Positions 11,531 through 55,187 of a DNA stretch of 64,000 nt are shown here, one piece after another. The translations under genes and the position numbers were made by a program. How positions within the stretch are numbered: position 1 is the stretch's first letter; every line of letters begins with the position of its first letter. Source of the stretch: Streptosporangium lutulentum (GTDB lineage: Bacteria > Actinomycetota > Actinomycetes > Streptosporangiales > Streptosporangiaceae); contig NZ_JAUSQU010000001.1 of NCBI RefSeq assembly GCF_030811455.1, forward strand, positions 7,316,001 through 7,380,000. Reading direction: 5' to 3'. Under the pieces are notes generated by a model. It saw only the letters and a program-made list of their open reading frames with translations, made no database searches and had not been told where the DNA came from.

Positions 11531-14500
11531 ATGACCACGGCCAACACCGTGTCCGACGTCGAGGAGCGACGTTACAGCGAGTCTGATCTGCAACCGATTC
11601 TTCAGACGCTCATCACCTGGCGCGACGGTGACTTCCGCCGCCGGGTTCCGCATGCCCCACCAGGGATTCTCAGCGAGATCCGACTCCTGCTCAACGAGGT
11701 CGCCGACCGTCGCGAACACCTCGCCAACGAGCTCCATCGCGTCCGCCGCGAGGTGGTCAAGGAGGGCCGGTTCGGCGAACGCCTCACCGCCGGGCCCGGC
11801 GTGGGCTCCTGGGCCGAGAGCGTCGACTCGGTGAACTCTCTGATCGACGCCCTGGTCGGGCCGGTCAGCGGCGCGGCGGACGTCATCGACGCCGTGGCCA
11901 AGGGAGACCTGTCACGCCGGATCGACCTCGATCGCAGCGCCAGGGGCGAGGTGCGCCGCCTCGGCAAGGCGATCAACGGCATGGTCGACCAGCTCTCCCT
12001 GTTCACCTCGGAGGTGACGAGGGTCGCCCGCGAGGTCGGCACCGAGGGCCGGCTGGGCGGCCGGGCGAACGTGCGGGGCATGTCCGGCAGCTGGCGCGAC
12101 TTGACAGAAGCCGTCAACACCATGTCAAGCCGCGTCTCCGCGCAGGTCCGCGACATCGCCCTGGTGACCACGGCGGTCGCGAGGGGCGATCTGAGCCGCA
12201 AGGTCACCGTCGACGCGGTCGGCGAGATGTTCGAGCTGAAGAACACCGTCAACACCATGGTCGACCAGCTTCTGGCGTTCGCCGAGGAGGTCACCCGCGT
12301 CGCCCGCGAGGTCGGCACCGAGGGCCAGCTCGGCGGCCAGGCCCAGGTGCGCGGCGTCTCCGGGGTCTGGAAGGACCTCACCGACAACGTCAACTTCATG
12401 GCGGGCAACCTGACCACCCAGGTCCGCGCGATCGCCACGGTCGCCACGGCGGTGGCCCAGGGCGACCTGTCCAAGAAGATCACCGCCGACGCCCAGGGTG
12501 AGATCCTCCAGCTCAAGGACACCCTGAACACCATGGTCGACCAGCTGTCGATGTTCGCCGACGAGGTCACCCGCGTCGCCCGCGAGGTCGGCACCGAAGG
12601 CCAGCTCGGCGGCCAGGCCCGGGTCCGCGGCGTCTCCGGGGTCTGGAAGGATCTCACCGACAACGTCAACTTCATGGCGAACAACCTCACCTACCAGGTC
12701 CGCAACATCGCCGAGGTCACCACCGCCGTCGCCACCGGCGACCTGACCCGCAAGATCGACGTGGACGCGCAGGGTGAGATCCTCGCGCTGAAGACCACCA
12801 TCAACACCATGGTCGACCAGCTCTCCTCCTTCGCCTCCGAGGTGAGCCGCGTCGCCCGCGAGGTCGGCACCGAAGGCCAGCTCGGCGGCCAGGCCCAGGT
12901 GCGCGGCGTCTCCGGCACCTGGAAAGACCTCACCGACAACGTCAACGTCATGGCGAACAACCTGACCACCCAGGTCCGCCAGATCGCGGCCGTGTCCACC
13001 GCGGTGGCCCAGGGCAACCTGTCCAAGAAGATCACCGCCGACGCCCAGGGCGAGATCCTCCAGCTCAAGGACACCCTGAACACCATGGTCGACCAGCTGT
13101 CGATGTTCGCCGACGAGGTCACCCGCGTCGCCCGCGAGGTCGGCACCGAAGGCCAGCTCGGCGGCCAGGCCCGGGTCCGCGGCGTCTCCGGGGTCTGGAA
13201 GGACCTCACCGACAACGTCAACTCCATGGCGAACAACCTCACCTACCAGGTCCGCAACATCGCCGAGGTCACCACCGCCGTCGCGAACGGCAACCTGACC
13301 CGCAAGATCGACGTGAACGCGCAGGGTGAGATCCTCGCGCTGAAGACCACCATCAACACCATGGTCGACCAGCTCTCCTCCTTCGCCTCCGAGGTCACCC
13401 GGGTGGCGCGCGAGGTCGGCTCGGAGGGCCAGCTCGGCGGCCAGGCCCGGGTCGACGGCGCCGAGGGCATCTGGAAGCGGCTCACCGAGAGCGTGAACGA
13501 GCTGGCGGGCCGCCTCACCACCCAGGTCCGCGCGATCGCCGAGGTCACCACCGCCGTCGCCCGCGGCGACCTGACCCGCTCGATCGCCGTCGACGCCGAG
13601 GGAGAGATCGGCGAGCTCAAGGACAACATCAACACGATGGTGTCCAACCTGCGCGACACCACCACCGCCAACCAGGAACAAGACTGGCTCAAGTCCAACC
13701 TGGCCCGCATCTCCCGCCTCATGCAGGGCCATCGCGACCTGATGGAGGTCGCCAAGCTCATCATGAGCGAGCTGACCCCCCTGGTCTCGGCCCACTACGG
13801 CGCCTTCTACCTGGCGAACCCCTTCGGCGACCACGACCTGCACCTGATCGCCGGGTACGGCGCGCGCCCCGGCTCCCACCCCCGTCAGCGCTTCTCCACC
13901 GGCGAGGGGATCGTGGGACAGGCCGCGATGGAGGGCAAGAGGATCATTCTCCGGAACGTCCCCGCCCGGTATCTGACCGTGGACACCGGCCTCAGCACCT
14001 CGACCCCGGCCCAGATCGTCGTGCTGCCGATCCTGTTCGAGACCCAGGTGCTCGGTGTGCTGGAGCTGGCCTCGTTCAGCCAGTTCAGCGAAGTCCACCA
14101 CGACTTCCTGAACCAGCTCGTCGAAACCATCGGCGTCACCATGAACACGATCATCGCCAACTCCCGGACCGAGGACCTGCTGACCGAGTCGCAGCGCCTC
14201 ACCACCGAGCTGCAGGAGCGTTCGGACGAGCTCCAGCGCCAGCAGGAGGAGCTGCGCCGCTCCAACGCCGAACTGGAGGACAAGGCCGCGCTGCTGGCCA
14301 AGCAGAACCGGGCCATCGAGATCCAGAACTTCCAGATCGAGCAGGCGCGCCGTACGTTGGAGGAGCGTGCCGAGCAGCTCGCGGTCTCCTCCCGCTACAA
14401 GTCCGAGTTCCTGGCCAACATGTCCCACGAGCTGCGCACTCCCCTGAACAGCCTCCTCGTGCTGGCCAAGCTGCTCACCGAGAACGCCGAGGGCAACCTC

Positions 14501-17929: not shown

Positions 17930-20668
17930 TCACGAATCCATCCGAACACTCACCACCGCGGCCCCGAAAAGCAAGACGTCCTGACGGGTGCTCACCGTGA
18001 GCACCGGATCCCGGCCGAGGGTCGCCTGGAAGCCGTCCACATCCGTGCCGAAGGTCACGCTCGTATCCCTCGCCCCGGTGGCGGACCCGTCGAACGGGTT
18101 GCGCGGGTCCCTGTCCCCGCTGTCCGGGCGGAGGGTACGGCCGCCCAGCGTCACCCGGTCTCCCCGCACGCTCGCGTCGCCCTCCCAGGTCACCAGTGCC
18201 ACCCGCGCGGGCGTGCCGGTGGACGTCAGCCCGTTGAGCGGGATCCGCACCGACCTGTGCCCGCCGTCCAGCACGGTGGCGGTGTCGACGACGACCGCCT
18301 GGCTGTACGGCCGGCTCGGATCAGCCGCGATGATCACCAGACTCCACCCGGCGTGCTGCGAGACTCCGGGCCTCAGCGAGGCGTCCGCCACCCAGTACGT
18401 TCCGCGGACCTCGCCCACCAGCCGCGTCACGTCGGCGAACGCCTGGTATCTCCGGCCGGACGGCAACCCCCTCTCCACCACCCGCGCCGCCCTCACCTTC
18501 CTGTATCTCTCGTCCCCCGGCGCCTTGAACTTGACCTGCCCGCTGGAAGGCGCGCTCGCCGACCAGTAGAGGCCGGCCCAGACCAGCTTGCTGGTCCTCG
18601 GCAGGAGAAGCTGGGCCGCGCTCGAATTTGTCGTCGACGGGTCCCCGTCCTTGTCGAAAGGGCGCATCGCCCAATGGTTGTTGTCCCGACGGTCACCCGT
18701 GCGCGAACGGGCGGCACCGCACGCGGATCCGGCGCGCACGCAGCTCAGCAGGGTGTTCCCGATCGCGGAGGTGACCACCCGGCCGTCCGTGGCGAACCGG
18801 GCGGGGGCGCCGGCGGCCCGTACCCCGCTGCTCGACCTGGCCGTCGTCCGCACCCCTCCGGCGGAGACCGTGACCGAGGGCGCCGAACCCTTGACCCCCG
18901 CCGCCGAGGAGACCAGGACCCGCAGGAACACCGCCGTGGCCTGGTCCGCCGCCAGCGAGCCACGGGTGCACCGCGCGCCTCGGGCCCGCATCCGGCAGGA
19001 CCAGCCGTCGACCGTACCGACCGGCGTGACCACGACGACCGCCCGTCCCCTCCGGGCCGCCGCCAGCAGCGTCACCCCGTCCGGCAGGCCGATGTCGGCG
19101 ACGAGCTCGCCGCTCTCCTCGGCGGCGGCGTTGTGCAGCCGTACCACCACGATGCCGGGCTCGGACCTGACCAGCGCACCGAGCACGTCGATCCTGGCGA
19201 CCAGGCGCGACGAGGACCTGGTGTTCGTCCGCCCCCTCGGACTCGCCGTGCCCCGGGGACCCGCCCCACCTCGGAGACTCATCCCACTGCGGGGACTCGC
19301 CTCACTTCGCGAACTCGCCGCCCCTTTCGGACTCGCCTCACTACGAGGACTCGCCGCTCCTGTCGGGCTCGCCTCACTTCGTGAACTCGCCTCGGTGCGA
19401 GGACTCGCCCGGTCTTCGAGGCCGGCCCCGCTCCGGAGACTCGCCTCACTACGAGGACTTGCCTCACTACGAGGACTTGCCGCTCCTTTCGGGCTCGCCT
19501 CACTACGAGGACTCACCCCGCTACGAGGACTCGCCTCATTCGGGGGACGGGCTCCGCCTCCGGGACCGGCCCCGGGACTCGCCCCGCTATGGGGGCTCGC
19601 CTCACTACGGGGGCTCGCCTCGCGTACGGGTGGCTGCGCCACGATTCCGGGGCTTTTCCGCCCCTCCGCCCCCTGGCTCGGGGACGGCCACGGGGCATGG
19701 GGGCGGGGCTCCGGGGTCACGACCGGCCCCACGACGGAGGAGGGCAGCGGTTCGCCCGCCGACACCAGCACGAGCGCCGACGCCGTCACGACCGCCGTAA
19801 CCGCCACACCGGCCGCGATCACGCGCCGCAGGGGCCGGGGCGCCCGCCGCCACCGGCCGGACACCCCGCCTCCGGCCGTGGCGCCCATCTTGCCCAGCGC
19901 CGTTCGATACCCGGCGAACGCCGGACCGACGATGAGCGGACCGACGACGGCCCGCAGGCTCTGGCCCATACCGGCCAGCTCGACGAACACGGCGTGGCAG
20001 CCGGGGCAGTCGTTCATGTGCCCGTCCACGGCCAGGCTCTCTTTTTTGGTCAGGCCGCCCCGCACGTGATTCCCCAGCTTGCCCAGCATCGGGCGGCACT
20101 CCGGGGAGAGTGTCTCGGCCAGGTGGATCCGCAGGCAGGCCTGGCGCATCTTCTCCCGGGCCTGGTAGGCCAGTGCGGCCACCCCGTTCTCCGTGAGGTT
20201 CAGCAGGACGGCGATGTCGGCGAGCCTGCCCGACTCGACCTCGACGTGCCAGAGGACGAGCCGCCACCGCTCCGGCAGGGAAAGGAAGGCTCTGGCGGGC
20301 GGCGACTGCCTCAGATGGGCCAGCGCCGGGTCCACGAAAGGCACCTCCGGGTCGAGGGGCTCGATCTCCTCGCCCGGCTCCTGCCCGTCGCCCCTCTCGG
20401 ACCGGTCGTGGATCGTATGTCGGAGCGCGGTGAGCAGGTAGACCCGGAACGCCTGCTCCGGGCCGCCGCCCCGCTCGATCACGTGATGGATCCCGGCGAA
20501 CGTCTTCTCCACGACGTCCTCGACCTCGGCCTCGCCCGAGACGAGTTGCTGGGCCAGGGCCCAGGCCGCGGACACATGCCGCCGGTAGAGCCAGTAATAG
20601 GCCTCCGCATCCGCCTCACGGGTCGCGGCCAGCAGCTCGGCGTCGCCTTGAAGTGATTTCGCACTCAT
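17930..20668 (-). CDS. ECF sigma factor fused to zinc-finger anti-sigma, TM and extracytoplasmic domain
   Basis: This 912-aa protein has sigma region 2 (about 15-95) and region 4 (about 120-185, LPERWRLVLWHVEVE then LADIAVLLNLTENGVAALAY). A zinc-finger anti-sigma motif HxxxCxxC (H217, C221, C224) follows, then a membrane helix (283-304). Next comes a Ser/Pro-rich stretch of SEASPR-type hexapeptides (about 335-480). A large region with beta-sandwich character (about 490-912) contains KLVWAGLYWSAS, QAFADVTRLV and HAGWSLVIIAADP. Topology predicts sigma inside and sensor outside. A sigma that ships with its own inhibitor and receptor probably needs proteolytic release. GAGG precedes the ATG. Confidence 0.88.
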   Translation of the reverse strand: MSAKSLQGDAELLAATREADAEAYYWLYRRHVSAAWALAQQLVSGEAEVEDVVEKTFAGIHHVIERGGGPEQAFRVYLLTALRHTIHDRSERGDGQEPGEEIEPLDPEVPFVDPALAHLRQSPPARAFLSLPERWRLVLWHVEVESGRLADIAVLLNLTENGVAALAYQAREKMRQACLRIHLAETLSPECRPMLGKLGNHVRGGLTKKESLAVDGHMNDCPGCHAVFVELAGMGQSLRAVVGPLIVGPAFAGYRTALGKMGATAGGGVSGRWRRAPRPLRRVIAAGVAVTAVVTASALVLVSAGEPLPSSVVGPVVTPEPRPHAPWPSPSQGAEGRKSPGIVAQPPVREASPRSEASPHSGASPGAGPGGGARPPNEASPRSGVSPRSEASPKGAASPRSEASPRSEASLRSGAGLEDRASPRTEASSRSEASPTGAASPRSEASPKGAASSRSEASPRSGMSLRGGAGPRGTASPRGRTNTRSSSRLVARIDVLGALVRSEPGIVVVRLHNAAAEESGELVADIGLPDGVTLLAAARRGRAVVVVTPVGTVDGWSCRMRARGARCTRGSLAADQATAVFLRVLVSSAAGVKGSAPSVTVSAGGVRTTARSSSGVRAAGAPARFATDGRVVTSAIGNTLLSCVRAGSACGAARSRTGDRRDNNHWAMRPFDKDGDPSTTNSSAAQLLLPRTSKLVWAGLYWSASAPSSGQVKFKAPGDERYRKVRAARVVERGLPSGRRYQAFADVTRLVGEVRGTYWVADASLRPGVSQHAGWSLVIIAADPSRPYSQAVVVDTATVLDGGHRSVRIPLNGLTSTGTPARVALVTWEGDASVRGDRVTLGGRTLRPDSGDRDPRNPFDGSATGARDTSVTFGTDVDGFQATLGRDPVLTVSTRQDVLLFGAAVVSVRMDS
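19230..19640 (-). repeat. 18-bp coding minisatellite (SEASPR hexapeptides) in sigma-factor gene
   Basis: About twenty degenerate 18-bp units of the type gactcgcctcactacgag (read on the plus strand) encode hexapeptides such as SEASPR and GAASPK. They form the presumed extracytoplasmic stalk just outside the membrane helix. The unit is a multiple of three, so changes in copy number would keep the frame. Confidence 0.8.
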
Positions 20669-20731
20669 TGTGACCTCATCAATACCAAGAGTTACTCACC
20701 GCATGATTCCGCAGCCTCTGGCATGACTAAA

Positions 20732-20754
20732 CCCCGATCGATTTTTTATCGGGG
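20732..20754. other. Hairpin between sigma-factor gene and pyrE
   Basis: CCCCGAT (20732-20738) and ATCGGGG (20748-20754) flank a T-rich 9-nt loop. It lies between divergent genes, upstream of the pyrE promoter, so it is not a terminator for either; an operator is possible. Confidence 0.35.
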
Positions 20755-20790
20755 GGGCCAGGTGCGAACCGCGCGTCATGCGGACCGCCC

Positions 20791-20796
20791 TAACCT
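20791..20796 (+). promoter_or_regulatory. -10 hexamer of leaderless promoter for pyrE
   Basis: TAACCT ends 7 nt before the ATG at 20804, with no Shine-Dalgarno. Confidence 0.6.
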
Positions 20797-20803
20797 TGGT
20801 GCC

Positions 20804-21340
20804 ATGAACGATCGCGAGAACCTGTTGGTCGAGATCAAGAGCAAGGGCGTCGTACACGGCAAGGTCGTGCTGTCCTCGGGCAAGGAGGCGGACTTCTATG
20901 TGGACCTGCGCCGGGTGACCCTCGACGGGCAGGCGGCGCCGCTGGTGGGCCGGGTCATGCTGGACCTCACCGAGGACCTCGACTACGACGCGGTCGGCGG
21001 GCTCACCCTGGGCGCCGACCCCGTGGCGACCGCCATGCTGCACGCGGCGGCGGCGCGAGGCAGGACGCTCGACGCGTTCGTGGTCCGCAAGGCGCAGAAG
21101 GCGCACGGCATGCAGCGCCGGATCGAGGGCCCGGACGTGGCGGGGCGACGGGTGCTCGCGGTGGAGGACACCTCCACGACCGGCGGATCCCCACTGACCG
21201 CGGTGGAGGCGCTCCGCGAGGCGGGCGCCGAGGTCGTGGCCGTGGCCACAATCGTGGACCGGGGGGCCGCCTCCGCGATCGCCGAGGCGGGCCTGCCGTA
21301 CCGGACCGCCTACAACCTGAGCGACCTCGGCCTGGGCTGA
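20804..21340 (+). CDS. pyrE: Orotate phosphoribosyltransferase
   Basis: The 178-aa enzyme converts orotate and PRPP to OMP in pyrimidine synthesis. It has the PyrE start phrase VHGKVVLSSGKEADFYVDLR, the catalytic-loop region VVRKAQKAHGM with Lys residues, and the PRPP-binding motif VLAVEDTSTTGGS. Length is normal for bacterial PyrE. The ATG at 20804 is fixed by a leaderless-type -10 box. The C-terminal phrase TAYNLSDLGLG is unusual because its DNA is reiterated about five more times beyond the stop codon; see the repeat entry. Confidence 0.95.
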   Translation: MNDRENLLVEIKSKGVVHGKVVLSSGKEADFYVDLRRVTLDGQAAPLVGRVMLDLTEDLDYDAVGGLTLGADPVATAMLHAAAARGRTLDAFVVRKAQKAHGMQRRIEGPDVAGRRVLAVEDTSTTGGSPLTAVEALREAGAEVVAVATIVDRGAASAIAEAGLPYRTAYNLSDLGLG

Positions 21341-21545
21341 ACCAGAACGGCCTGCAACCTGAGCGACTTCGGTCCGGACCGAACCAGAACGGCCTGCAAC
21401 CTGAGCGATCTCGGTCCGGACCGAACCAGGACCGCCTACGACCCGGACGACCTCGGCCCGAGCCGAACAAGACCGCCTACACCTCAGACGACCTCGGTCT
21501 GAGCCGAACAGGACCGCCTACGACCCGGACGACCTCGGCCTGTGC
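21305..21545 (+). repeat. Tandem copies of the pyrE 3' end
   Basis: Six units start at 21305, 21347, 21389, 21431, 21472 and 21513 with period 42, 42, 42, 41 and 41 bp; the last is partial. Unit 1 is the end of pyrE itself, from ACCGCC through the stop codon to CCAGA. Units 2 and 3 keep the reading frame and would add 14-residue repeats (RTACNLSDFGPDRT) on readthrough; units 4-6 are shifted by 1-bp deletions. Units 2 and 3 contain a palindrome around TCGGTCCGGACCGA, perfect over 16 bp in unit 2, so the array may also end transcription. Confidence 0.85.
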
Positions 21546-21567
21546 CCGCGGCGTCCGGAGAGAATGC

Positions 21568-22029
21568 TCACTGCTCTCGGGAAACGGTGAACTCCTGGCG
21601 CTCCCCGGGCTTGCCCGGGGGGCGGACGGTGCCGTTCACCCGGACGTGGACGGCGGTGGAGTCTGCCAGCACCACGTCGACCTTGGAGTCGAAGGACTGG
21701 ACCTGCTCGTCCTTGACCAGTTCCCGGTTGAGCAGCACATCGCCTCCGACGACCTTGAGGAAGACCGCGGGACAGCGCTCCCGCGCGCACTGGATGAGAA
21801 CCGTCGGGACCCGCCCCGAGGCGGAGGGCTTGGGGGCGGTGGTCGTGGGAGCGGCGGCCGGAGGCGAGGAGGTCGCGGGCGCGGGCAAGGCGGCCGACTC
21901 CGGCGGGGGGTCCAGCGCGCCGATCAACGAGAGAGCTCCGACCACGATCAGGGCGACGAGAGCCAGCACCGCCAGACCTGCGAGAACCAGTCGGGCGACA
22001 CCCATCGGATCAGAACTGTGGCGTCCCAC
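21568..22029 (-). CDS. Membrane-anchored protein with RodZ-C-terminal-like domain
   Basis: The 153-aa protein has one membrane helix (about 12-38, LVLAGLAVLALVALIVVGAL), a Pro/Ala/Thr-rich linker (about 40-72) and an extracytoplasmic beta domain (about 73-153). Phrases such as DVLLNRELVKDEQVQSF and VRVNGTVRPPGKPGERQEF resemble the DUF4115 domain found at the C-terminus of RodZ, but the RodZ HTH is missing. It may take part in envelope assembly; that is inference. The start is GTG at 22029 with a leaderless -10 box 7 nt upstream. DedA lies upstream on the same strand. Confidence 0.6.
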   Translation of the reverse strand: MGRHSSDPMGVARLVLAGLAVLALVALIVVGALSLIGALDPPPESAALPAPATSSPPAAAPTTTAPKPSASGRVPTVLIQCARERCPAVFLKVVGGDVLLNRELVKDEQVQSFDSKVDVVLADSTAVHVRVNGTVRPPGKPGERQEFTVSREQ

Positions 22030-22036
22030 ACTGTGG

Positions 22037-22042
22037 AGGTTA
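22037..22042 (-). promoter_or_regulatory. -10 hexamer of leaderless promoter for RodZ-like gene
   Basis: TAACCT on the minus strand ends 7 nt before the GTG at 22029. Confidence 0.55.
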
Positions 22043-22082
22043 GCGGCTGGTGAGGTATCTCTCGACCGGCCGGGGACATCGG

Positions 22083-22808
22083 TTACGGCTGGATGTTTCG
22101 CCTTGTCGGAGCGGTGGGAGCACCGAGACGGTGCTTTCCTCCGGACTCGGGACCACCGGAACCGCCGCCCTTACGGCCCTTCACGAATTCCAGGACGATC
22201 GGGATGATCGAGAGGAGAATGATCACAAAAGCGCCCGGCAGAATGTATTTGTCGATGTCGGGCACCGCGGAGCCGACCACGCGGCCGAAAATCAGCATGC
22301 TGTCGGTCCAGAGAATCCCGCCGACGCAGTTCCACAGGAAGAACCTCTTGCGGTCCATGCCGAGCATTCCGGCGACCGGGTTGAGGAAGGTGCGCACGAT
22401 CGGGATGAACCGGGCGAGCACCACGGCCTTGGCGGGGCCGAACTTCTGGAAGTAATACTCGGCCTTGTCGACGTGCTCCTGCCTGAAGAGCTTGGAGTCG
22501 GGCTTGTCGAACAGCCTGCGGCCGAACGTGGCGCCGAGGTGATGGCCCAGCTGGGCGCCGATGATGGCGCAGATCGGGGCCAGGACCAGCAACACGGGGA
22601 ACGAGAGCGGTGTGAGCCCGGGAATGGCGGCGGCCGCCTCGACGGTGCTGAAGACCCCCGCGGCGACGAGCAGCGAGTCACCGGGCAGGAAGAATCCGAG
22701 CAGCAGCCCGGTCTCGGCGAAGATGATGCCGAGCACCCCGATGGTGGCGAACGGGCCCAGCAGGCCGAGCCACCACTTGGGGTCAAGGAGATTGTGCAGG
22801 AGGTCCAT
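22083..22808 (-). CDS. DedA-family membrane protein
   Basis: The 241-aa integral membrane protein carries DedA/SNARE-associated (VTT) hallmarks: GLLLGFFLPGDSLLVAAGV near the N-terminus, the G-rich GAQLGHHLGATFGRRLF segment and FIPIVRTFLNPVAGMLGM with the conserved Arg. Family members act as lipid flippases/scramblases (undecaprenyl phosphate or phosphatidylethanolamine). The C-terminus is a basic Gly-rich cytosolic tail. ATG at 22808 is preferred over an in-frame ATG at 22856 because a TAGGCT box lies 8 nt upstream and DedA proteins begin near MDLLHNLLDP. Confidence 0.88.
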   Translation of the reverse strand: MDLLHNLLDPKWWLGLLGPFATIGVLGIIFAETGLLLGFFLPGDSLLVAAGVFSTVEAAAAIPGLTPLSFPVLLVLAPICAIIGAQLGHHLGATFGRRLFDKPDSKLFRQEHVDKAEYYFQKFGPAKAVVLARFIPIVRTFLNPVAGMLGMDRKRFFLWNCVGGILWTDSMLIFGRVVGSAVPDIDKYILPGAFVIILLSIIPIVLEFVKGRKGGGSGGPESGGKHRLGAPTAPTRRNIQP

Positions 22809-42860: not shown

Positions 42861-44891
42861 TCAACCGGCAATGGATTGGTAGATACCACGGTAGGTCTCG
42901 GCAATGCGGCTCCAGGTGCGCTTGGACGCCACTTCAGCCCGTCCGGCCTCACCCATCGCGGCCCGCCGCTCCGGATCGTCACGCAGTCCCGCGATCGCCT
43001 TGGCGAGCGCCTCGGGGTCACCCGCGGGCACCAGAAGCCCGGCCCCGTCTGAACCCACGAGCTCCGACAGGGCAGGCAGATCGCTCAGTACGACCGGCTT
43101 GCCGAGAGCCATCGCCTCGACCGGTTTCAATGGTGTAACAAGTCGGCAGACTCGCAGGTCCTCGCGCGGGCAGACGAAGATGTCGATGGCCGCCTGCGCC
43201 TGCAGCGCCTCCTCGGGACCGACCCTGCCGGGCAGGATCGCGATGTCCCCCAGCCCCAGTTCCTCGACCTGCTCCAGCAGCGCCGCCCGCTCCACGCCGT
43301 CGCCGACGAGCAGCACCTTGACCGGCGCGCCCTGGTCCCGCAGGAGCGCGGCAGCGTTGATCATGGTCGCGAAGCCCTCGTAGGCCACGATGCTCGACAC
43401 GGAGCCCATGACGATCTCGCCGGGCTCGATGCCGTAGGCGGCGCGGAACGCCGCTCCGTCGTACTCCGCGACCAGCAACGAGTCGTCCACGGCGTTGGGC
43501 GCCAGGAAGATCTTCTCTCTCGGCACGCCCCGCTCGACGATCTCGGCGGCCATGGTCTCCGCGAGGGTGACCACGGCGTCGGCGGAGCGCATGATGAACG
43601 CCTCGCGGTCACGCTGGAGCACGTGCCGCTGGCTGCCGATGCGCTTGGGGTCGCGGGACGCCCAGGTCTCCTCCAGGAAGCCCCGGACCTCGTAGACCAT
43701 CGGCGTGCCGGTACGCTCGCGCACGGCGAGCGCCACCGAGCCGTTGCGGTGGTCGGTCGCGGCGTGCAGCACCTGCGGCCGGAGCGTCCTGACCAGCTCG
43801 GTCACCTCGCCGGCGCCCCGGATCATCCGGCCCTGGCTCTCGAAGGGCACCTCGCCGCTCGGGATCAGGCGGTGGTAGGGGGTCCCGTCGATCTCCTCGT
43901 ACGGCGTGGCGTCGGCGTGGCCCTGCATCATCGGCCAGCCCCAGCTGGTCACGACGTGCGGGTCCAGCCCGAGGGCCCTCTGCGCGGTGACGATCCGGTG
44001 CGTGCGCACGGTGTATCCGGCCTGCGTGTACGGCAGGGCGTTGGTGACACAGTGCAGCACCCGGCCCGCGATCCGCTCGCCGACGATCACCTTCGCCTTG
44101 GGCGGGATCGGGTTCGGCTGGATGGAGGCCAGCTCACCGGCGTAGTAGAGGGCACGGCGCTTGATGAACGGGTATCGGGTGTGCGCCTGGAGCACCGCGG
44201 CGGCCTCGGTCATCCGGCCGGCGTCGAAGTGCGCCTTCGCGTCGTCCCACGGTCCCCGCACGAGACGCATGCCGAGCTTGCGAACGACGATCTTGGCCCG
44301 GCGCGCGACGGGCCAGGCGAAACGACCCACGACGGGACGCACCCGCGGCGGAAGTGTCTCCGCGGCCGCCTGCGCCACCCGCATCGGATCGGACTTGACC
44401 TTCGTCGCCACCACGCGGGAGACGATCACCGGGTGCCGGGCGAACCCCTTGATGAGTCCGCGCAGGCCGGCGCGGGCCGACTTCGCGGAAACCGGATTCG
44501 CCGCAGCCGGGACCGCCTCCGGCGGGACCGGAACGGACTCCGCCGAAACGGGAGCGGACTCCGGCGCGGTGGGCTCCGGTGCGACCGGAACGGTCTCCGG
44601 CGCGGCGGAGGCGGGCTCCGCGGAAACCGGGGCGGGCTCTGCCGGAACGGGCTCGGGGAGAGCCGGAACGGGCTTGTCTGACACCAGCGCGGGCTCCTGT
44701 GAATCTGAAACGGGTTTCGCCGAAGCCGGAACGGGCTCGGCCGAATCCGAAGCGGACGTCGCCGAAACCGGAAGAACGGCCTCTGGGGGAACGGGAACCG
44801 ACTTCGGTGAATCTGGTACGGACTCCGCTGAAGCTGGAACCGATTTCACTGAAACCACGGGGGAGTATGGCCTGTTGGCATCGGATACCAC
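42861..44891 (-). CDS. Glycosyltransferase with long Pro/Ala/Glu-rich N-terminal tail
   Basis: The 676-aa protein has a low-complexity N-terminal region (about 8-145) of SAEPVPA-like hexapeptide blocks. A GT-B catalytic part (about 270-676) follows, with QAGYTVRTHRIVTAQRALG, VYEVRGFLEETWASRD, KIFLAPNAVDDSLL and the donor motif PLKPVEAMALGKPVVLSDLP. It should be a family 4 retaining transferase. The GTG at 44891 is preferred because TACGGT lies 6 nt upstream and a longer frame would overlap the divergent epimerase gene. The tail may be a membrane- or partner-tethering linker. Confidence 0.82.
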   Translation of the reverse strand: MVSDANRPYSPVVSVKSVPASAESVPDSPKSVPVPPEAVLPVSATSASDSAEPVPASAKPVSDSQEPALVSDKPVPALPEPVPAEPAPVSAEPASAAPETVPVAPEPTAPESAPVSAESVPVPPEAVPAAANPVSAKSARAGLRGLIKGFARHPVIVSRVVATKVKSDPMRVAQAAAETLPPRVRPVVGRFAWPVARRAKIVVRKLGMRLVRGPWDDAKAHFDAGRMTEAAAVLQAHTRYPFIKRRALYYAGELASIQPNPIPPKAKVIVGERIAGRVLHCVTNALPYTQAGYTVRTHRIVTAQRALGLDPHVVTSWGWPMMQGHADATPYEEIDGTPYHRLIPSGEVPFESQGRMIRGAGEVTELVRTLRPQVLHAATDHRNGSVALAVRERTGTPMVYEVRGFLEETWASRDPKRIGSQRHVLQRDREAFIMRSADAVVTLAETMAAEIVERGVPREKIFLAPNAVDDSLLVAEYDGAAFRAAYGIEPGEIVMGSVSSIVAYEGFATMINAAALLRDQGAPVKVLLVGDGVERAALLEQVEELGLGDIAILPGRVGPEEALQAQAAIDIFVCPREDLRVCRLVTPLKPVEAMALGKPVVLSDLPALSELVGSDGAGLLVPAGDPEALAKAIAGLRDDPERRAAMGEAGRAEVASKRTWSRIAETYRGIYQSIAG
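44460..44870 (-). repeat. Coding repeats of SAEPVPA-type in glycosyltransferase gene
   Basis: Degenerate in-frame repeats of roughly 18-24 bp, of the type GCCGAAACCGGAACGGACTC on the plus strand, encode alternating Ser/Ala/Glu/Pro/Val blocks in the N-terminal tail. Confidence 0.65.
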
Positions 44892-55039: not shown

Positions 55040-55072
55040 CCGGCCGATCAGGGACCTCCCGGCCCGGCCCCG

Positions 55073-55187
55073 CCCGATCGCGCCCGGACTCCCGAGCGGA
55101 CTCGGCCCCGCGCGATCGCGCCCGGACTCCCGAGCGGACTCGGCCCGCCCGATCGCGACCGGACTCCCGAGCGGACTCGGCCCCGAC
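55073..55187. repeat. 37-38-bp tandem repeats between convergent genes
   Basis: Three copies begin with CGATCG at 55075, 55113 and 55150 and contain CCGGACTCCCGAGCGGACTC. Each copy includes the dyad CCGAG-CGGA-CTCGG. The array fills the 3' spacer between the flavoprotein stop and the convergent acyltransferase stop and may act as terminator for both. Confidence 0.7.

Follow-up and report, generated by a model that had tools for sequence, protein, structure and literature searches.

The 3' end of pyrE in Streptosporangium lutulentum runs on into a tandem array that is very probably a private, neutral minisatellite of the gap between two convergent genes, born by local tandem duplication; its neutrality and its molecular mechanism are both what we infer. 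The array lies in a window of 64,000 nucleotides, which is the whole stretch of DNA analysed (contig NZ_JAUSQU010000001.1, positions 7,316,001 to 7,380,000). A segment of ~42 bp across the pyrE stop would have been tandemly duplicated in this lineage, at a time when the gap was probably just tens of bases wide, and later rounds of slippage or unequal recombination would have brought the number of copies to about six. The copies outside the gene would have drifted, selection on PyrE keeping unit 1 as it was. A duplication across the stop codon would be tolerated because it leaves the protein unchanged.

Tandem Repeats Finder placed the array at 21305-21540, with a period of 42, 5.7 copies, 79% matches and a score of 246, and the repeat finder returned six copies with spacings of 42, 42, 42, 41 and 41. 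From its start within pyrE to its end at about position 21540, the array fills the convergent gap. An earlier note, made from the letters alone, had described the end of pyrE as reiterated about six times, with a first unit made of the last codons, the stop and a 6-bp spacer; the two programs found the array to be real and in that place, and the first unit has the proposed composition (Table 1). The best self-match of the region is 62 vs. a maximum of 12 across 60 shuffles. Its units lie head to tail, have a length within 10-100 bp, are present in at least two copies and resemble each other beyond chance, all of which are features of minisatellites. Relative to unit 1, the identities of units 2 to 6 are 83, 81, 79, 83 and 74%, respectively. 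All pairs considered, identities range from 64 to 93%, and no two units are identical, the closest being units 2 and 3 (93%). Since these two units are so alike, as are units 4 and 5 (88%), the array probably grew in several rounds. The repeat finder also reported paired arms at 21368-21382 and 21411-21425, at the palindromes in units 2 and 3.

Table 1. Features of the pyrE locus (positions in the window)
Feature	Position	Strand	Description
pyrE, orotate phosphoribosyltransferase	20804-21340	+	178 aa; TGA at 21338-21340; Pfam Pribosyltran, E 7.9e-09; gene caller
Unit 1	21305-21346	+	42 bp: 33 coding bases of the pyrE end, TGA stop and 6-bp spacer; ancestral copy; C-terminus conserved in congeners
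Unit 2	21347-21388	+	42 bp; 83% identity to unit 1; perfect 16-bp palindrome at 21368-21383
Unit 3	21389-21430	+	42 bp; 93% identity to unit 2; 14-bp palindrome at 21411-21424
Unit 4	21431-21471	+	41 bp; 79% identity to unit 1
Unit 5	21472-21512	+	41 bp; 88% identity to unit 4
Unit 6	21513-21540	+	Partial; periodicity weakens near 21540
Convergent neighbour	21568-22029	-	153 aa; 3' end faces the array; start at 22005 according to the gene caller; hydrophobic stretch near the start, by eye
Inverted repeat	21599-21624		11-bp stem within the 3' end of the neighbour; local fold of -26.8 kcal/mol

Concerning the flanking genes, the name pyrE, taken over from the earlier note, fits the Pfam match, and PyrE identity across 15 congeners (one genome per species) is 88-97%, the C-terminus being conserved too. 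The convergent neighbour had no Pfam match, and the comparison of the pyrE DNA with plasmids gave no match. The inverted repeat within the 3' end of this neighbour is found as an unbroken stem of 7-11 pairs in seven of the 15 congeners (L003, L004, L005, L006, L009, L011 and L012) and is absent as such in the other eight. It is a candidate array-independent hairpin that could serve the pyrE transcripts, or it may just reflect the coding sequence.

The array has a single blastn match in the whole 10.64-Mb genome (3 contigs, 100% complete); the occurrence of its units throughout the genome apart from pyrE, which the earlier note had named as the observation that would speak against it, was thus looked for and not seen. 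The array is absent from all 15 congeners, and in the 250 bases after their pyrE genes no array unit was matched better than shuffles. Because the C-terminus of PyrE is conserved in these congeners and no trace of a unit lies downstream of it, the comparison indicates that unit 1 is the original and that the outer units are copies of the pyrE end.

The orthologous gap was then surveyed in 42 genomes, of which 16 belong to the genus (counting the present one) and 26 are relatives. These relatives, from Streptosporangiales and near relatives, were taken from 80 loci, of which Streptomyces, other loci, and L033, L043 and L060 (the same as genomes of the genus) were left out before counting. In each of the 42 genomes, pyrE is followed by a gene called in the convergent orientation. 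A clear tandem self-repeat occupies the gap in 11 of them (6/16 in the genus and 5/26 among the relatives), with two more marginal cases (60 shuffles each); other repeats thus sit in the pyrE gap of five of the 15 congeners. Their lags are 18, 22, 24, 30, 32, 42, 43 and 61 bp, and the median gap width is 140 bp where a clear repeat is present (n = 11) vs. 18 bp in the other 31 genomes. When the 11 repeat-bearing gaps were compared in 55 pairs, a clear resemblance was seen for L005 and L006 (47 vs. 17 for shuffles) and a slight one for L045 and L051 (16 vs. 14), the remaining pairs not exceeding shuffles. What was duplicated in L005 and L006 is the 3' end of the convergent gene instead of that of pyrE. 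As the repeats in the orthologous gaps are mostly unlike each other, this survey indicates that the pyrE gap has grown on several occasions by different tandem duplications, one and the same gap acquiring a different array from one species to another. Judged by pyrE DNA, the closest congener is L004 (94.0%), where the gap measures 1 bp and holds no array.

The pyrE array is not special, private arrays with other units being common in the gaps of this genome and of its relatives. Intergenic arrays numbered 74 in 860 kb of this genome vs. 2 when the gaps were shuffled, and 138 vs. 5 in 800 kb from five congeners. Among convergent gaps, the array-bearing proportion was 15/151 in this genome and 41/127 in the five congeners; further afield, it was 3/18 in a different genus of the same family, 8/102 across seven genomes belonging to other families of the class, and 1/15 in E. 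coli K-12 (100 kb). The first two rates are not strictly comparable, since the congener samples all come from around pyrE and those of this genome do not: here, the convergent gaps bearing an array are 11/75 around pyrE, and 1/38 and 2/34 in two regions far from it. As for the other orientations, the proportions are 52/457 codirectional and 12/127 divergent gaps in the congeners, and 41/458 and 6/148, respectively, in this genome. All gap counts are approximate, as the genes were called by our own codon-usage caller, which yields plausible genes around pyrE but can miss or mis-start genes, so that some "gaps" of 1-3 kb are probably missed genes; under two training schemes, the congener convergent-gap count was 42/129 vs. 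41/127. In Streptomyces loci, 32 arrays were found in 238 gaps, nearly all codirectional, vs. 4 in shuffled ones; 12 of these arrays overlap 3' ends and none a 5' end.

Many arrays begin within a gene end, and another gene end is duplicated near-identically at 2118491-2118572 (42 bp, 97%, 35 coding bases). To judge such overlaps, one unit was placed at random over the estimated pre-array gap. Of 73 convergent-gap arrays, 26 overlap a 3' end vs. 23.6 ± 3.1 expected under this model. The gap at pyrE is estimated to have measured 30 bp before the array arose, leaving a 42-bp unit with hardly any chance of missing a gene end. The proposal that the end of a housekeeping gene had been copied repeatedly therefore stands in part: the array does derive from the conserved pyrE end, but a special copying of such an end is unsupported, arrays being common and their 3' overlap in convergent gaps matching blind placement. 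In 123 codirectional cases, 27 arrays overlap a 3' end and 9 a 5' end, with 14.9 ± 3.1 expected for each. Purifying selection can explain this 3' excess over 5', since a duplication across a stop spares the protein and one across a start disturbs the leader; the excess of 27 vs. 14.9 may also reflect a modest true preference of arrays for gene 3' ends.

Two other readings give the array a function. According to the first, it is a selected bidirectional terminator, in which the amplified TCGGY..RCCGA hairpin of each unit stops transcription between the convergent genes; the earlier note had likewise suggested that the palindromes of units 2 and 3 could end transcription. These palindromes are indeed present (a perfect one of 16 bp in unit 2 and one of 14 bp in unit 3, as read from the sequence), and a long stem forms between them in the fold. 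As RNA, the array region has a more stable fold than its shuffles (z of -3.4 on the + strand and -2.2 on the - strand), one pair is changed on both sides in two of the six units, 96.7% of the cells are paired, and the gap is convergent. Yet perfect palindromes can also come from template switching, the covariation and pairing measures within the array were matched by 98 or more of 500 shuffles, and a consensus scan of 20400-22400 found no T-tract terminator. No Rfam match was obtained in 20300-22500 at E up to 1. The 15 congeners manage without the array, and a different hairpin lies just beyond it in the 3' end of the neighbour, here and in seven of them. A survey in which the central 150 bases of 676 gaps of at least 60 bp were folded (array-free codirectional gaps being subsampled to ~30%) pointed the same way: convergent gaps with arrays (n = 55) had a median z of -0.98 vs. 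-1.15 for array-free ones (n = 148; p = 0.34), and arrays added no folding in codirectional (p = 0.27) or divergent (p = 0.93) gaps. Among gaps free of arrays, the convergent ones fold better than the divergent ones (p = 9e-5), a difference not seen among gaps with arrays (p = 0.39), from which it follows that hairpins track convergent gaps and not arrays. A selected terminator is therefore unlikely, and the termination proposed for the palindromes found no support. Readthrough of the stop, giving a PyrE with C-terminal 14-residue repeats, is scarcely conceivable. Past the stop, 53 codons follow in an open frame, with CGA in place of the stop codon in units 2-4, so the in-frame repeats described before do exist; they are three, however, and not two, the first single-base deletion standing at the end of unit 4, where the repeat reading stops. 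Besides, the common CGA can be one inherited change, and the absence of the array from the 15 congeners leaves such an extension of PyrE unsupported.

The remaining readings concern where the array came from. Palindromic repeats standing at gene ends resemble REPs in their position, which would suit units that belong to a dispersed family, akin to REP or MIRU, and inserted at pyrE; such an insertion is nonetheless very improbable, as the array matches the genome once, unit 1 is pyrE coding sequence, and the hairpin core (at most one mismatch) occurs at six places, four of them inside the array, vs. three for a reversed control. An array ancestral in the genus and deleted in the other 15 genomes would agree with the units having diverged more than one expects of an array that postdates the separation from L004. 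Such a history is quite unlikely: several losses would be needed, each restoring both gene ends, no trace of a unit follows pyrE in the 15 congeners, and the repeats present in congener gaps have other units. As for an assembly artefact, it is argued against by the fact that every unit differs from the others, as well as by the contiguity and completeness of the genome and the recurrence of such arrays in other assemblies, and its probability is close to nil.

Regarding the mechanism of a private duplication, MutS had no match in the genome, in which one NucS and two Ku matches were found. The NucS pathway is described as acting on transitions (PMC8228993), and larger slipped loops may escape it. 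Among 28 isolated young two-copy duplications, 39% have at least three bases of junction microhomology vs. 8% of simulated ones (rank test, p = 0.45), the rest having little or none. As this signal is mixed, no single mechanism is claimed: slippage and homology-free duplication, e.g. by fill-in and end joining (Ku being present), are both plausible. A reading of strong microhomology, based on 24 of 34 perfect duplications with at least three bases (10% expected), was dropped, since that set includes pieces of older arrays. In perfect intergenic repeats, 25 of 42 periods are divisible by three, an excess that may reflect missed coding repeats. Concerning age, the divergence from unit 1 is 17-21% for units 2-5, and the fourfold sites of pyrE give K = 0.18 relative to L004. 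At that rate, the unit divergence would exceed what is expected for an array formed after the split from L004, which suggests either that arrays evolve faster or that this array is older and was lost in L004.

The pyrE array belongs to a known kind, the bacterial minisatellites. Like these and the VNTRs, including the mycobacterial MIRU-VNTR loci, it has units of tens of bp, in tandem and intergenic, in an actinobacterium. MIRUs are one sequence family spread over many loci, whereas the units at pyrE are private to one locus. With intrinsic terminators, it shares GC-rich hairpins right after a stop codon and a convergent gap, but it has no T-tract and folding strength is not linked to arrays. 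REP elements, described as high-copy palindromic repeats, are likewise short palindromic sequences outside genes (PMC3733652), in contrast to the single-locus unit of pyrE. Arrays starting in gene ends have already been described in the archaeal Borg elements (PMC9879509), where some arrays have a first unit that is wholly or partly inside a gene end and where the repeats are presented as recently formed and of independent origins. The likeness extends to many head-to-tail arrays per genome, independent and fast evolving (PMC9879509), and the pyrE array too starts within a gene end and has a unit private to its locus. Borg units are, however, reported as perfectly repeated and A-rich (PMC9879509), whereas those of pyrE differ by 7-36%, are GC-rich and lie on a bacterial chromosome. 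A literature search naming Streptosporangium with tandem repeats and intergenic found no paper.

Ordinary as it is, the array provides a clear example of intergenic growth, in which duplicates of gene 3' ends are added to the gap and the protein is left as it was. A larger reading, in which the convergent gaps of Streptosporangium are hot spots of tandem duplication, perhaps via transcription collision, and the spacers between convergent genes owe their growth mainly to reiteration of the final tens of bases of these genes, is doubtful; were it true, spacers would be growing in this way across the lineage, with the pyrE array as one footprint. It is weakened by the convergent gaps of this genome being no richer in arrays than the codirectional ones (15/151 vs. 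41/458). The frequency of arrays in the convergent gaps of the congeners (41/127) would make the genus tractable for the birth and turnover of minisatellites in the setting of a genome with no MutS match, and array loci are candidate markers for strain typing.

Several other repeats were met along the way. The densest arrays among the sampled congeners are those of G013, 9420001-9620000, where 14 of 30 convergent gaps, and ~29% of the convergent-gap bases, are concerned. At G000:C1:7042787-7042959, a codirectional gap holds five 33-bp copies with 100% matches, young by their identity. In the window itself, another convergent gap carries an array at 55062-55185 (38 bp x 3.2, 94% matches), and a divergent gap contains ~340 bp of degenerate 21-bp repeats (44517-44853). 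At 19274-19640, 18-bp repeats code for a Ser/Pro/Arg-rich low-complexity stretch in a 912-aa ORF (17930-20668, minus strand), which matches sigma-70 region 2 above the cut-off and region 4 below it. Finally, a 276-bp unit is present in six copies at 11972-13641 and, its length being a multiple of three, is probably coding.
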